Of a DNA stretch of 64,000 nucleotides, positions 30,220-63,128 are shown in pieces. Origin of the DNA: Halodesulfovibrio spirochaetisodalis (lineage in GTDB: Bacteria > Desulfobacterota > Desulfovibrionia > Desulfovibrionales > Desulfovibrionaceae); NCBI RefSeq assembly GCF_001672295.1, contig NZ_JXMS01000004.1, positions 95,330 to 159,329 on the forward strand, in the 5' to 3' direction. The translations under genes were made by a program, and so were the position numbers. How positions within the stretch are numbered: position 1 is the first letter of the stretch; each line of letters opens with the position of its first letter. The notes beneath the pieces are model-generated. The model was given only the letters and a program-made list of their open reading frames with translations. It did not search any database and was not told the DNA's origin.

Positions 30220-30296
30220 GGCGAGGTAGCTCAGTTGGTTAGAGCATGCGGCTCATATCCGCAGTGTCGGGGGTTCAATTCCCTCCCTCGCTACCA
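30220..30296 (+). tRNA. tRNA-Met (CAT), copy 1
   Basis: A 77-nt cloverleaf with all stems and encoded CCA. The anticodon loop is CTCATAT (CAT). Elongator type, because it lacks the C1-A72 mismatch and the GGG/CCC anticodon stem of initiators and lacks the C4-G69/C5-G68 pairs of Ile2 tRNA. The 1-72 pair is G-U. First of six identical copies. Confidence 0.96.
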
Positions 30297-30332
30297 TCTT
30301 ATTACACACTTTAGGCCGACCACATACTTGAT

Positions 30333-30409
30333 GGCGAGGTAGCTCAGTTGGTTAGAGCATGCGGCTCATATCCGCAGTGTCGGGGGTTCAATTCCCTCCC
30401 TCGCTACCA
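30333..30409 (+). tRNA. tRNA-Met (CAT), copy 2
   Basis: Identical to copy 1. It lies 113 nt downstream of copy 1, separated by a 36-nt spacer that is repeated unchanged between all copies. Confidence 0.96.
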
Positions 30410-30445
30410 TCTTATTACACACTTTAGGCCGACCACATACTTGAT

Positions 30446-30522
30446 GGCGAGGTAGCTCAGTTGGTTAGAGCATGCGGCTCATATCCGCAGTGTCGGGGGT
30501 TCAATTCCCTCCCTCGCTACCA
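30446..30522 (+). tRNA. tRNA-Met (CAT), copy 3
   Basis: Identical 77-nt gene in the 113-bp tandem array; anticodon CAT, CCA encoded. Confidence 0.96.
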
Positions 30523-30558
30523 TCTTATTACACACTTTAGGCCGACCACATACTTGAT

Positions 30559-30635
30559 GGCGAGGTAGCTCAGTTGGTTAGAGCATGCGGCTCATATCCG
30601 CAGTGTCGGGGGTTCAATTCCCTCCCTCGCTACCA
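30559..30635 (+). tRNA. tRNA-Met (CAT), copy 4
   Basis: Identical 77-nt gene in the 113-bp tandem array; anticodon CAT, CCA encoded. Confidence 0.96.
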
Positions 30636-30671
30636 TCTTATTACACACTTTAGGCCGACCACATACTTGAT

Positions 30672-30748
30672 GGCGAGGTAGCTCAGTTGGTTAGAGCATG
30701 CGGCTCATATCCGCAGTGTCGGGGGTTCAATTCCCTCCCTCGCTACCA
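30672..30748 (+). tRNA. tRNA-Met (CAT), copy 5
   Basis: Identical 77-nt gene in the 113-bp tandem array; anticodon CAT, CCA encoded. Confidence 0.96.
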
Positions 30749-30784
30749 TCTTATTACACACTTTAGGCCGACCACATACTTGAT

Positions 30785-30861
30785 GGCGAGGTAGCTCAGT
30801 TGGTTAGAGCATGCGGCTCATATCCGCAGTGTCGGGGGTTCAATTCCCTCCCTCGCTACCA
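30785..30861 (+). tRNA. tRNA-Met (CAT), copy 6
   Basis: Last identical copy. Its 3' flank differs from the 36-nt spacer and leads to a terminator, so all six copies are probably one transcript cut by RNases. Confidence 0.96.
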
Positions 30862-46598: not shown

Positions 46599-47138
46599 TT
46601 AGCCTGCATGCTGCAGCTGCACCTCATCCCTGCCATCTATCTCTTCTATTAAAACATCTACTTGCTCATTACGGGCTGTGGCAATCTGCTTACCCACGTA
46701 ATTTGCCTGAATAGGCAACTCCCGATGCCCGCGATCGACCAGAACCATCAGTTCAATGCGGCTAGGTCTGCCGTAATCAAGCACAGCTTCCAGAGCAGCA
46801 CGAATAGTGCGTCCTGTAAAAAGCACATCATCCACCAGCAGCAATGTTTTACCATCTACTCCAGAAGGAATATCTGTCTTATTAATCATCGGCTGCACGT
46901 CCAGAGTAGTCCAGTCATCACGGTACAAGTTAATATCCAGTGATCCGAACTCGATATCTCTTCCGAGACGTTCTTCCAGAACAGCCCGCACTCGAGCAGC
47001 TATATCCACTCCCCTTCTCTGGATTCCGACCAGAACAAGGCTGTCGCATTCACCATGATTCTCTATTACCTGAAATGCAAGGCGATCTACTGTGCGTCGC
47101 ACTTCATCTTCGGTCATAACAGTCTTAACGTTTCCCAT
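46599..47138 (-). CDS. pyrR: PyrR-type bifunctional pyrimidine regulator / uracil phosphoribosyltransferase
   Basis: A 179-residue type I phosphoribosyltransferase with the PRPP motif LLLVDDVLFTGRTIRAAL and the flanking LVGIQRRGVDIAAR and MVLVDRGHRELPIQANYVGK typical of PyrR. In Gram-positives PyrR binds pyr mRNA leaders as an attenuator and has uracil phosphoribosyltransferase activity; the regulatory role in Desulfovibrio is unproven. The ATG follows AAAGGA. No other pyr gene is visible. Confidence 0.93.
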   Translation of the reverse strand: MGNVKTVMTEDEVRRTVDRLAFQVIENHGECDSLVLVGIQRRGVDIAARVRAVLEERLGRDIEFGSLDINLYRDDWTTLDVQPMINKTDIPSGVDGKTLLLVDDVLFTGRTIRAALEAVLDYGRPSRIELMVLVDRGHRELPIQANYVGKQIATARNEQVDVLIEEIDGRDEVQLQHAG

Positions 47139-47605
47139 CTTTGTGTCCTTTGTTCTGCGTTATTCCACAAGGAACGAATGCTGAGTACAGTATCTTTTTT
47201 CTTTCATAAAATAAACTGCATCCGCGTGCCACATGTGACCTATGTCAATGGCTCCCGTTCAGGATTCAGTTATTTATGACCCGACCGATTGACTTTGCCA
47301 TTTCTATACTTATGTATTGTTATCCTTGGCATTTGCCTACTGGAACAGTACTCTTTCTATCATCAGCACATTAGCGGTTACTAAATGCCCCGTCTATGGT
47401 AGTATGAAAAACTGAAAAGGACTCTTTTCAGCGCACTGTAAAACACAGCCTTCAGGGAACACAGGCATGCACAGCAAATTCCCTGAGATGCCCGTAAAGA
47501 GCCTTTTCCGGCGCATCCAAAACCCTGATGCTGCGGTTCCATTTCTATTGACAAAGCCAATAACTGTCTTTACTTGATATGAACAACCTACGTGGAGGAA
47601 ATTCA
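47139..47605. other. Intergenic region pyrR / Sec-HesB, with a structured segment
   Basis: 467 bp between divergent genes. From 47415 to 47507 the sequence can fold into a three-way-junction-like structure: outer stem 47415-47427 with 47496-47507 (12 bp, one bulge), hairpin CTGT-ACAG (47436-47448) and hairpin CAGGGAA-TTCCCTG (47453-47485). Nothing conserved is recognised. A TTGACA at 47548-47553 could be a -35 for the HesB gene, with a poor -10 (TACTTG). Confidence 0.5.
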
Positions 47606-47923
47606 ATGTTTACATTGACTGAAAACGCCCACAAAGAACTTGCGGCGTATTTTGCAGATAAGGAAAAATCTCCTATCCGCATCTATCTGGCTCCGGGCGG
47701 CTGAAGCGGCCCAAGATTGGCATTGGCTCTGGATGAGCCAAACGACGACGACTCCGTATTTGAAGAGAAAGAATTTACTTTCTGCATCAATAAAGACCTC
47801 ATTGAAAAGTCTGGTAAAATTACCATCGACCTTTCTTACATGGGCTTTGTTGTAGAGTCCGAGAACCCTCTTGGCGGCGGCAGCTCATGTGGCGGTTGCT
47901 CCAGCGCAGGTTCTTGCGGCTAG
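47606..47923 (+). CDS. Selenocysteine-containing HesB/IscA-family protein
   Basis: A 105-residue A-type iron-sulfur carrier homologue, read through an in-frame TGA at codon 33 (47702-47704) as selenocysteine. The flanks LAPGG-U-SGPRLALALDEP align exactly with LAPGG-C-SGPHLGLAMDEP of the next gene, so Sec replaces the first cluster-ligand cysteine. The C-terminus has SSCGGCSSAGSCG, the other ligand region. A hairpin fitting a bacterial SECIS lies 18 nt after the TGA. HesB-like selenoproteins are an established prokaryotic family. GGAGG precedes the ATG. An ordinary annotation would stop at codon 32 or start late. Confidence 0.9.
47702..47741 (+). promoter_or_regulatory. UGA codon and bacterial SECIS element
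   Basis: After TGA (47702-47704) and an 18-nt gap, TTGGCTC-TGGAT-GAGCCAA (47723-47741) forms a perfect 7-bp stem with a 5-nt loop containing two G near its start. Distance and G-bearing loop fit the bacterial SECIS pattern bound by SelB. Confidence 0.82.
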
Positions 47924-47939
47924 ACCAGCTTAGCTTACT

Positions 47940-47972
47940 AAAGGCGGTTTCTTATGAAGCCGCCTTTTTTAT
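47940..47972 (+). terminator. Terminator after the Sec-HesB gene
   Basis: The stem AAAGGCGGTTTC/GAAGCCGCCTTT with a TTAT loop and one wobble is followed by six T. Confidence 0.87.
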
Positions 47973-48105
47973 TGTCTCTGGTATATAAAAAACCGATAGG
48001 TCTGCGTTCCATGCCCGTGCGTGAATCAATACCGGCAACAGCTGTTTGACTTTTTATTAATAGCGCACATAGTGGTTACCTATACCATAACTGGAGGAAC
48101 ACACT

Positions 48106-48417
48106 ATGTTCACTGTGACTAACGCAGCTCGTAACGCACTTGACCAGCACTTCGAAGATAAAGAACTTGGATCTATCCGTATATACCTTGCACCGGGCGG
48201 ATGCAGCGGCCCTCACCTCGGCCTCGCCATGGACGAACCGACAGATGACGATACTGTCCTGAATGCAGAACCGTATTCTTTTTGTATCAACAAGGAACTG
48301 CTCGACAAAACAGGCGACCTTACTGTAGACATCCGCTACGAAGGCTTTGTTATTGAAACAACAAACCCGCTTGGTGGTGGAGGCTGCTCCGGATGCGGAG
48401 GCGGTTGCCACGGATAA
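48106..48417 (+). CDS. HesB/IscA-family protein, cysteine paralogue
   Basis: A 103-residue paralogue of the gene 180 nt upstream, with an ordinary cysteine (GGCSG) where the first has Sec. The two share the same start pattern (MFT-T--A----L) and the middle CIN-(K/E)-L. It ends in GGGGCSGCGGGCHG, more cysteines than the CGCG of IscA. Likely role: iron-sulfur binding or transfer; not proven. GGAGG precedes the ATG. It has its own leader and terminator. Confidence 0.92.
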   Translation: MFTVTNAARNALDQHFEDKELGSIRIYLAPGGCSGPHLGLAMDEPTDDDTVLNAEPYSFCINKELLDKTGDLTVDIRYEGFVIETTNPLGGGGCSGCGGGCHG

Positions 48418-48430
48418 CTACCAATAAATC

Positions 48431-48464
48431 AAAAAAGCGGCTTCATGTTGAGGCCGCTTTTTTT
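48431..48464 (+). terminator. Terminator after the Cys-HesB gene
   Basis: The stem AAAAAGCGGCTTC/GAGGCCGCTTTTT has one wobble and is followed by T's. It overlaps the leader of the next small gene. Confidence 0.85.
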
Positions 48465-48483
48465 ATGCTCAGGAGATACTGCC

Positions 48484-48699
48484 GTGACGTTTAAAGAATC
48501 TGTCATGTACGGAATTAAAATTGCGCACAAAGAGAAAAAAGAATTTGTAGTGGGCAAAGAAGACGGACGCTGGGAAGTGCGCGAACTTGCAGACCCTAAA
48601 TCCGACCAGATGTCTCCAAGCATTATTGTCACCGGTAAAGGCATCAAGTATCCGGATGACGAATATCTTTACGCCCAGTTGATTGAGGAAGGGGCGTAA
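48484..48699 (+). CDS. Small protein of unknown function
   Basis: 71 residues starting at GTG 48484 (AGGAG with an 8-nt spacer), MTFKESVMYGIKIAHKEKKE onward, with a strand-rich middle (FVVGKEDGRWEVRELADP) and C-terminal DDEYLYAQLIEEGA. Composition is that of a real, soluble, acidic-basic mixed protein. I do not recognise a family. It directly follows the HesB pair but has the terminator in between, so co-expression is uncertain. Confidence 0.68.
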   Translation: MTFKESVMYGIKIAHKEKKEFVVGKEDGRWEVRELADPKSDQMSPSIIVTGKGIKYPDDEYLYAQLIEEGA

Positions 48700-48736
48700 T
48701 CTGTCAGCACATATCCCGCTGACAACGTGCCATTCT

Positions 48737-49399
48737 TCATCGTGGTGCTTTCAAAAGTTCCATCCACTCCGCACTGCTGCAGACACCGCATTCTATCTTT
48801 TTTAAATCTGCTTCGCCGGAAGAATGAATACCCGCAATAGCATCACGAAGGGCGACAACACGATAATCATACGCTGCCGCTTCATAAATTGTGGTGCGGA
48901 CACAATTGGCAAACCATGTGCCGGTAGTCACGACCGTTGTCACTCCCATAGCACGCAGCATTATATCCAGCTGCGTACGGAAAAAACATCCCCAGCGCGG
49001 TTTATAGAGAATCTGTTCCGTATCAGAAATCCGTTGCGGCTCTCCGGTACGCAGCAATTCACCATCAGCAACCACGCCTTCAGGAATAATTGCAGAAACC
49101 GGCTGCATCCCTTTCGTTCCTGAAATCACCAGATCAAGACCGCTCTGTACTGCCTCCCGTCTGCACACATCAACATTTTGCGCTGCCTCCTCACGGGAAT
49201 AGATTCGAACCACATGGATAATTGGCAGCCGAAGTTCTCTGTAGCATTGGGCTATCGTTGCCGTAACTGCTGCGGCTTTTGCGGCTCCTTCCCCTTCTGC
49301 CGGAGCACCGGGCAGCACAAAGTCGTTTTGCAGATCAATAGTTATCAACGCACTGTTTTGTGGTTCTGGACGGGTAAATTGGGAAAAATGGTCAAACAT
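48737..49399 (-). CDS. Isochorismatase-like cysteine hydrolase
   Basis: A 220-residue alpha/beta hydrolase of the isochorismatase/nicotinamidase superfamily. The catalytic triad is visible: Asp in LITIDLQNDF, Lys in YKPRWGCFF and Cys in GTWFANCVRTT. The cis-peptide segment before the Cys reads TGTWFAN. The substrate is unknown; members cleave isochorismate, nicotinamide, N-carbamoylsarcosine and others. The ATG at 49399 follows AAGGA; longer frames are unsupported. Convergent with the small gene upstream. Confidence 0.9.
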   Translation of the reverse strand: MFDHFSQFTRPEPQNSALITIDLQNDFVLPGAPAEGEGAAKAAAVTATIAQCYRELRLPIIHVVRIYSREEAAQNVDVCRREAVQSGLDLVISGTKGMQPVSAIIPEGVVADGELLRTGEPQRISDTEQILYKPRWGCFFRTQLDIMLRAMGVTTVVTTGTWFANCVRTTIYEAAAYDYRVVALRDAIAGIHSSGEADLKKIECGVCSSAEWMELLKAPR

Positions 49400-62151: not shown

Positions 62152-62228
<77 letters not shown>

Positions 62229-62238
62229 CGATAATTTA

Positions 62239-62266
62239 GCTCACAGTACACACTGTGAGCTTTTTT
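62239..62266 (+). terminator. Terminator of tRNA-Pro copy 1
   Basis: The 9-bp stem GCTCACAGT/ACTGTGAGC is followed by six T. Confidence 0.88.
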
Positions 62267-62414
62267 CTTTGCTTTGAATGCAGACTGCACAATCCTGCAA
62301 CAAAATTTTGTATAGTTCACATACTGTTTTCAACGTATGACCACCTGAATATGCTGTTGTGCAATCAAAAACGTCTCTCGAAGAGATAAATTTGATTTTT
62401 TCTGCATTTTTTAC

Positions 62415-62443
62415 TTGCAAGTCATGCAAGTTTTCCTTAGTAC
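62415..62443 (+). promoter_or_regulatory. Promoter of tRNA-Pro copy 2
   Basis: TTGCAA (62415-62420), 17 nt, TAGTAC (62438-62443), 11 nt before the tRNA. Confidence 0.55.
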
Positions 62444-62454
62444 TTCTTTCGCGA

Positions 62455-62531
<77 letters not shown>

Positions 62532-62541
62532 CGATAATTTA

Positions 62542-62569
62542 GCTCACAGTACACACTGTGAGCTTTTTT
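62542..62569 (+). terminator. Terminator of tRNA-Pro copy 2
   Basis: Identical to the copy 1 terminator. Confidence 0.88.
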
Positions 62570-62717
62570 CTTTGCTTTGAATGCAGACTGCACAATCCTG
62601 CAACAAAATTTTGTATAGTTCACATACTGTTTTCAACGTATGACCACCTGAATATGCTGTTGTGCAATCAAAAACGTCTCTCGAAGAGATAAATTTGATT
62701 TTTTCTGCATTTTTTAC

Positions 62718-62746
62718 TTGCAAGTCATGCAAGTTTTCCTTAGTAC
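62718..62746 (+). promoter_or_regulatory. Promoter of tRNA-Pro copy 3
   Basis: TTGCAA, 17 nt, TAGTAC, identical to copy 2 promoter, 303 bp downstream. Confidence 0.55.
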
Positions 62747-62757
62747 TTCTTTCGCGA

Positions 62758-62834
<77 letters not shown>

Positions 62835-62844
62835 CGAAATTTAA

Positions 62845-62873
62845 GCTCACAGTACACACTGTGAGCTTTTTTT
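62845..62873 (+). terminator. Terminator of tRNA-Pro copy 3
   Basis: Same GCTCACAGT/ACTGTGAGC stem, followed by seven T. Confidence 0.88.
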
Positions 62874-63011
62874 ATTTTCCGACTGCCGACTGATGAAATC
62901 ATCAGCAGCATTCTTTTTATAGTGGCAGCCGCTGTAAGAGGAGAATATAGTCTCTTCTTACGCCAAAACGAGGTGACCCTGCATTAATTTTGCATTTTCT
63001 GCATTTTTTGC

Positions 63012-63040
63012 TTGCACCTCACGCAAGTTTTCCTTAGTAC
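63012..63040 (+). promoter_or_regulatory. Promoter of tRNA-Pro copy 4
   Basis: TTGCAC (63012-63017), 17 nt, TAGTAC (63035-63040), a diverged version of the copy 2 and 3 promoters. Confidence 0.55.
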
Positions 63041-63051
63041 TTCTTTCGCGA

Positions 63052-63128
<77 letters not shown>

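Follow-up and report, generated by a model that had tools for sequence, protein, structure and literature searches.

Selenoproteins of the HesB-like kind were in print by 2006–2007, with Desulfovibrio vulgaris among their hosts (passages of PMC1794560 and PMC1914089), and this agrees with the sequence-only reading of the DNA studied here, in which such selenoproteins were taken as already known. Their motif is listed as UxGP in a passage of PMC13188914. Passages of PMC11097638 relate that mutagenesis and 75Se labelling led to the identification of a HesB-like selenoprotein in Methanococcus maripaludis and that disruption of its gene left nitrogen fixation unimpaired (an unpublished observation cited there); the function of HesB-like selenoproteins is called not clear in the same paper.

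What does the present locus add? Its first gene is a member of these already known selenoproteins. It lies in a stretch of 64,000 nucleotides (the window), whose host is likely a marine sulfate-reducing Halodesulfovibrio, and is followed by a paralogue with cysteine (Cys) in the place of selenocysteine (Sec). We consider it likely that the first gene encodes a HesB/IscA-type selenoprotein whose Sec would serve as the first Fe or Fe-S ligand of an A-type carrier, and that the paralogue arose as an in-place duplicate of the Sec gene in which the TGA became a Cys codon. In such a system, Sec33, the CxxC (C95/C98) and C104 of the tail would bind the metal or cluster. The Sec copy would be the main carrier in selenium-replete anaerobic cells, and the Cys copy, a derived partner, could act as a selenium-independent stand-in in some lineages and as something other than a stand-in in lineages without Cys33, with a presumed division of labour between the copies.

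The locus and its neighbourhood

With the TGA translated as Sec, the first gene yields 105 residues (MFTLTENAHKEL...APGG-U-SGPRLALALDEP...GGGSSCGGCSSAGSCG), with U at codon 33 in the context GG-U-SGP, and the paralogue yields 103 residues with GG-C-SGP at the same place (Table 1). Translation thereby confirms what the letters alone had suggested, an in-frame TGA at codon 33 opposite the paralogue's Cys, and this TGA falls at the U-x-G-P position of HesB-like selenoproteins. The tandem arrangement, proposed with a spacing of about 180 nt, holds as well (the gap is 182 nt), and the two proteins of the window share 58% identity. A gene caller that stops at TGA drops 37 codons from the start of the Sec gene; such shortening had been foreseen, and the plain list of open reading frames holds in this frame the 3′ part alone (47717–47923), starting at 47717 and not at 47606.

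Table 1. Features of the locus, in window coordinates
Feature	Position	Strand	Basis
pyrR, divergent neighbour, locus marker across much of the family	46599..47138	-	profile match
Promoter-like sequence 5′ of the Sec gene: TTGACA 47548-47553, 17 nt, TACTTG 47571-47576, GGAGG ribosome site	47540..47605	+	six-locus alignment; promoter role inferred
Sec gene, HesB/IscA-like, predicted Sec33, TAG stop 47921-47923	47606..47923	+	profile, SECIS, sister loci
In-frame TGA, predicted Sec33, opposite the first ligand Cys of IscA-type proteins	47702..47704	+	translation, alignment
Bacterial SECIS hairpin UUGGCUC UGGAU GAGCCAA	47723..47741	+	folding, conservation
Intrinsic-terminator-like hairpin and T run, between the genes, kept in the genus	47940..47967	+	scan
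Promoter-like sequence 5′ of the Cys gene: TTGACT 48046-48051, TAGTGG 48070-48075, GGAGG site	48046..48105	+	alignment, scan
Cys paralogue, HesB/IscA-like, GGCSGP	48106..48417	+	ORF, profile, alignment
Terminator-like hairpin 3′ of the Cys gene	48433..48461	+	by eye; absent from scan list

Both proteins exceed the 85-bit cut-off of NF038090 (IscA_HesB_Se), the Sec protein with 118.1 and the Cys protein with 99.6 bits, which upholds the assignment to HesB/IscA. Both stay below the 66.35 bits of TIGR01911 (HesB_rel_seleno; 45.1 and 35.7 bits, respectively) and below the equivalog cut-offs of IscA, ErpA and SufA (for the Sec protein, score/cut-off of 27.7/150.6, 25.4/117 and 17.9/136.2 bits), and PF01521 gives the Cys protein 25.1 bits, slightly under its cut-off of 26.3. 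3′ of the Cys gene is a small conserved open reading frame (48445–48699, its start likely lying later, near 48505), whose homologues are 82–90% identical within the genus and 41–58% identical at loci of g38, g9, g12 and g2 near hesB genes; nothing in Pfam or NCBIfam matched it over cut-off. Elsewhere, the window holds six tRNA-Met genes in tandem (30220–30861, 113-base spacing) and four tRNA-Pro(TGG) genes (62152–63128, about 300-base spacing).

The Sec and Cys genes probably form separate transcription units, since a terminator-like hairpin stands between them and each is preceded by promoter-like sequence. Between adjacent copies, such a hairpin was found in 70/97 cases versus 36/485 single-base shuffles of those intergenic sequences; in the stretch scanned here, the terminator scan returned 2 sites versus 1.4 in shuffles. 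We infer the promoters from conservation because the promoter scan gave sites no more frequent than chance: it lists TTGACT with CATAGT at 16 nt for the Cys gene (shuffles average 2.0 such sites) and leaves the Sec-gene site at 47540–47605 unlisted. Over six loci of the genus, 60 of the 66 columns just ahead of the Sec gene (47540–47605) are identical, and the TTGACT region of the Cys gene differs from this sequence and is less conserved within the genus. In L112–L116, an inverted repeat (GATAG...CTATC), seen by eye, precedes the promoter-like sequence of the Cys gene, and it is incomplete in the window; it is a possible candidate operator, for which we make no claim as a selenium-switch element since it is not whole in the window.

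How widespread is this arrangement? The side-by-side Sec/Cys pair picked out by the sequence-only reading is real, but it is not peculiar to this genome: both forms occur together, in any order and with or without a third copy, in 76 of the 124 family loci. Sec stands alone in 27 others, Cys without Sec in 17, and in 4 Sec has a neighbour with S, N or Q; these loci, drawn from 122 genomes and with the window (L055) counted once, were chosen by best score and by a choice of genera, and are a non-random sample. Outside the family, 24 of 29 loci carry Sec alone and 5 carry Sec and Cys. NF038090 matches 231 of 247 family genomes, in 221 of them over cut-off. The copies sometimes lie far apart in the genome (G015, G117, G164), so Sec alone at a locus does not imply a genome without a Cys copy. 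All ten genomes searched in the window's genus hold one Sec and one Cys copy, with Sec first in six and Cys first in four, and a protein at L173 (Halodesulfovibrio sp.) shows 97% identity. pyrR was found beside the locus in 89/124 family loci, divergent in 89/89, and in 0/29 loci outside the family; the loci are short, and a missing pyrR may mean that the locus end was reached. In genus g25, ten loci (L036, L038–L043, L045, L047 and L053) have a third tandem HesB-like copy after the Sec/Cys pair, with E, D or A at position 33.

Conservation and origin of the two copies

Within the pairs, the Sec copy is usually the better conserved, its partner drifting or losing the ligand. Among 264 within-genus genome pairs, the Sec copy is the more alike in 217, the copies are equal in 9 and the reverse holds in 38; by mean, it is the slower copy in 11/14 genera (Wilcoxon p 0.0085), the exceptions being g28, g40 and g41, where the Cys copy is more conserved, and g25 is level. 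In the window's own genus, mean identity amounts to 0.91 for the Sec and 0.67 for the Cys copy. Compared with L115, L113 and L114, the window's Sec protein is identical at 105/105, 104/105 and 103/105 positions and its Cys protein at 72/102, 79/103 and 77/103; the ungapped comparison with L112 and L116 gives 96/104 and 94/104 for Sec and 76/103 and 79/103 for Cys, and that with the Cys-first species L061 and L063 gives 77/105 and 76/105 for Sec and 45/103 and 46/103 for Cys. The pair had been put forward as a natural experiment on what Sec adds. The pair itself is real, but it is no clean swap, given the 58% identity of its members and the unequal conservation of the copies in the genus (0.91 versus 0.67). 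The Cys copies do not form one clade.

Might the Cys copy be purely a stand-in for selenium shortage, switched on when selenium is scarce, as in the Sec/Cys isoenzyme sets of M. maripaludis? We hold this to be possible, while leaning against it. Isoforms are switched under selenium control in that archaeon (a passage of PMC11097638); in the window's genus the partner retains Cys at the ligand position in all proteins read (8 and 2 more), and the terminator-like hairpin and distinct promoter-like sequences between the genes would suit separate control. Across the family, however, the ligand is not always kept: Cys33 has been lost from partners in g38 and g39, where S (L146/L147), N (L165) or Q (L166) takes its place, and from third copies, with L at one g5 locus (L120) and with E, D or A at ten g25 loci, and Cys motifs are altered in g25, g29 and g10. 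SelB was found over cut-off in 18/19 Sec-bearing versus 5/16 Cys-only family genomes (Fisher p 0.00016; 37 genomes, of which G001 and G026, both SelB-positive, were excluded as ambiguous owing to weak extra TGA matches); six Cys-only assemblies are 74–91% complete, and of the ten Cys-only genomes at 95% or more, three have SelB. The Cys form alone tends to go with loss of Sec decoding, and Cys can replace Sec even with decoding retained, because five Cys-only genomes hold SelB.

As for the origin of the Cys copies, a tree of 245 rows (L051 and identical masked rows dropped) does not separate the Sec from the Cys copies as two clades; it calls for 34 changes for Cys, at least 12 of them forced, with few columns and many weak forks. 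In a 53-row tree, 16 label changes were counted, 13 of them forced by starred branches, and 0/200 bootstrap trees need a single change. The approximately unbiased (AU) test rejects one Cys clade (p 0.00038; with family rows only, p 2.0e-5). This smaller set was picked by genus after the 245-row tree had been inspected (28 loci named) and omits L167_C1532 (long branch), rows lacking both U and C, and identical masked rows, the window's Sec protein being among the latter as identical to a sister's. Over the rows tested, the 53-row tree and the AU test thus reject a single ancient duplication into one Sec and one Cys lineage; within the window's own genus, the AU test does not reject a single origin for all Cys copies (p 0.31). 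In L161, L048, L067 and L167, the 53-row tree groups the Sec and Cys copies as strongly supported sisters. The Cys copy of L019 retains the full inner stem of the SECIS and that of L167 comes near it, and both look like remnants of Sec genes.

Because the AU test rejects one Cys clade, the pairs at the pyrR-side locus would have formed repeatedly or been homogenised by gene conversion. The simplest reading of the sequences is repeated tandem duplication with a Sec-to-Cys change, because 24/29 outside loci have Sec alone. That Sec is the ancestral state is likely but falls short of proof, because at least three genomes outside the family (G348, G361 and G376) have over-cut-off NF038090 matches solely without TGA. 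Gene conversion might instead have held the members of a single ancestral Sec/Cys pair similar within each genome, with no need for many duplications: the locus beside pyrR is constant (89/124 family loci), and concerted evolution would likewise produce the grouping of copies by genus that the 53-row tree shows. Yet gene order varies within the genus (6 Sec-first versus 4 Cys-first), the young pairs compared are similar along the whole gene, with no clearly spared block at codon 33, and some Cys copies keep SECIS remnants, all of which makes one conserved ancestral pair a rather doubtful alternative to repeated duplication.

Predicted fold, ligands and carrier role

A-type carriers have three ligand positions, one in a loop and two in the tail. 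The loop Cys aligned with Sec33 and the tail pair we take to be the metal ligands of A-type proteins. By alignment, all three positions are occupied here, with Sec33 or Cys33 in the loop and Cys in the tail: Sec33 aligns to the GGCSG Cys of 1nwb and C95/C98 to its C-x-C, the tail spacing being CxxC here versus CxC in A-type carriers, and 135/136 Sec copies have at least two tail Cys. An AlphaFold2 model of the Sec protein (25-row alignment; mean pLDDT 82.5, C-terminal tail under 50) matches E. coli IscA 1r94 (TM 0.62/0.66) and the [2Fe-2S] IscA 1x0g. Most likely, Sec33 replaces the first iron- or cluster-ligand Cys of an A-type carrier, the ligand chemistry being presumed from these likenesses.

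Sec33 could also be imagined as a redox centre that pairs with a tail Cys in a selenenylsulfide; the protein would then be a reductase or a thiol/selenol switch built on an A-type fold. Redox functions are ascribed to many selenoproteins (passages of PMC13188914), and the Cys-rich tail, with its two or more Cys in 135/136 Sec copies and modelled at low confidence, could reach residue 33. We judge this unlikely, given that Sec33 sits exactly at the conserved GGCSG Cys of IscA-type proteins, that the predicted fold is IscA-like and that UxxC or CxxU is absent around Sec33; a ligand role for Sec33 is the reading we prefer.

In the window's genome, NF038090 and TIGR00049 each find these two genes only, and further A-type-like genes were not detected. 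TIGR00049 reaches its cut-off in 0/26 genomes (the window's and 25 relatives) versus 8/14 control genomes. The whole-genome PF01521 search missed both genes, and the absence of further A-type genes rests on NF038090 and TIGR00049; over 119 family genomes, PF01521 matched 11, 7 of them over cut-off (best 34.1 bits), several at the HesB genes themselves. We venture a broader proposal with considerable reserve, as one that may well prove wrong: in Halodesulfovibrio, and perhaps in much of the family, the pair might be the only A-type-like carriers, the leading Fe-S carrier might be a selenoprotein that holds its cluster via Sec, and the Cys partner might have been rebuilt repeatedly beside the Sec copy. 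If true, this would tie iron-sulfur trafficking to selenium and provide a replicated evolutionary experiment comparing Sec with Cys at one metal-ligand position. For the question of why HesB-like proteins keep Sec, many replicated in-genome Sec/Cys comparisons are available family-wide, and such pairs could show whether a natural Sec ligates an Fe-S cluster in a carrier. A laboratory strain, D. vulgaris, also has a member of the protein family.

Predicted decoding of the TGA and comparison with known systems

Is the TGA read as Sec? Past it by 18 nt begins a hairpin of 7 bp with a 5-nt loop and G at loop positions 2 and 3, much as first described from the letters and now borne out by folding and by conservation in relatives; it is included in the minimum-energy fold of the Sec gene stretch. 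Dinucleotide shuffles folded as well in 7/200 cases for the Sec gene (z -1.86) and in 177/200 for the corresponding part of the Cys gene. In a control that re-codes the 15 codons after the TGA synonymously and keeps the protein, 0/200 draws folded as well as the Sec gene (z -3.98). Across the family, p 0.05 in this control was reached by 88/107 Sec genes versus 12/96 Cys genes and, outside the family, by 9/29 Sec and 1/5 Cys genes; of the genes with other residues, 0/15 reached it. With all genes pooled, Sec differs from Cys at p 8e-27. In the SECIS, the inner five pairs form in 98/98 distinct Sec regions of the family versus 1/95 Cys regions, outside it in 29/29 Sec versus 0/5 Cys regions, and in 0/15 regions with other residues; single pairs exchange across relatives (G-C/A-T, C-G/T-A and T-A/C-G). 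The synonymous control and the conservation of the inner pairs in Sec versus Cys genes give good grounds to conclude that recoding, and not the protein sequence alone, maintains the hairpin. Rfam gave no match reaching the gathering score over 47100–48800.

The machinery that the sequence-only reading had asked about is in place: the window's genome (G000; 59 contigs, 99% complete) encodes a tRNA-Sec with anticodon TCA (84.6 bits) together with selB (400.9 bits), selA (626.2 bits) and selD (351.9 bits). Its SelD is probably a selenoprotein too, because its gene (L017, G000:C1:128935–129858) contains one in-frame TGA. Nor do relatives show the plain stop or decayed frame that the same reading had named as a warning sign, the TGA and the downstream frame being intact in five same-order and four reverse-order genomes of the genus. 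Sec insertion at codon 33 is thus predicted from the genes. We reject, as having next to no chance, the reading of the TGA as a plain stop or sequencing error in a decaying pseudogene, for which the stop codon itself speaks and nothing more, on the grounds of SECIS conservation (127/127 distinct Sec regions) and intact frames in sister loci (105/105 and 104/105 residues identical to L115 and L113), and the sel machinery in the genome likewise tells against it.

Set against described systems, the Sec gene is of a known kind, while the wider pairing pattern is apparently new: in the literature searched (titles, abstract openings and passages), we found no description of recurring, lopsided Sec/Cys pairing. 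The window's Sec gene resembles the HesB-like selenoprotein family (NF038090, TIGR01911; including D. vulgaris DVU_1382) in its NF038090 score, its U-x-G-P and the SECIS after the TGA, and differs in staying under the TIGR01911 cut-off and in having a tandem Cys paralogue with promoter-like sequence of its own; the likeness to DVU_1382 is one at family level, taken from its printed listing. With the A-type Fe-S carriers IscA, ErpA and SufA, the window's proteins share the predicted fold, the position of the loop Cys and the tail Cys pair, but the Sec protein has Sec for Cys and CxxC for CxC and falls short of the equivalog cut-offs. Sec-to-Cys change with a remnant SECIS is on record for Desulfitobacterium hafniense, in its HesB-like protein (PMC1794560, Fig. 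4 legend), and here, too, Cys would derive from Sec with an occasional SECIS remnant; in contrast to that conversion, the Sec gene persists next to its Cys copy, an arrangement met repeatedly in different genera. Finally, the selenium-controlled Sec/Cys isoenzyme pairs of M. maripaludis (as described in passages of PMC11097638) have in common with the present pair that both forms reside in one genome, but they are other proteins, namely methanogenesis enzymes.
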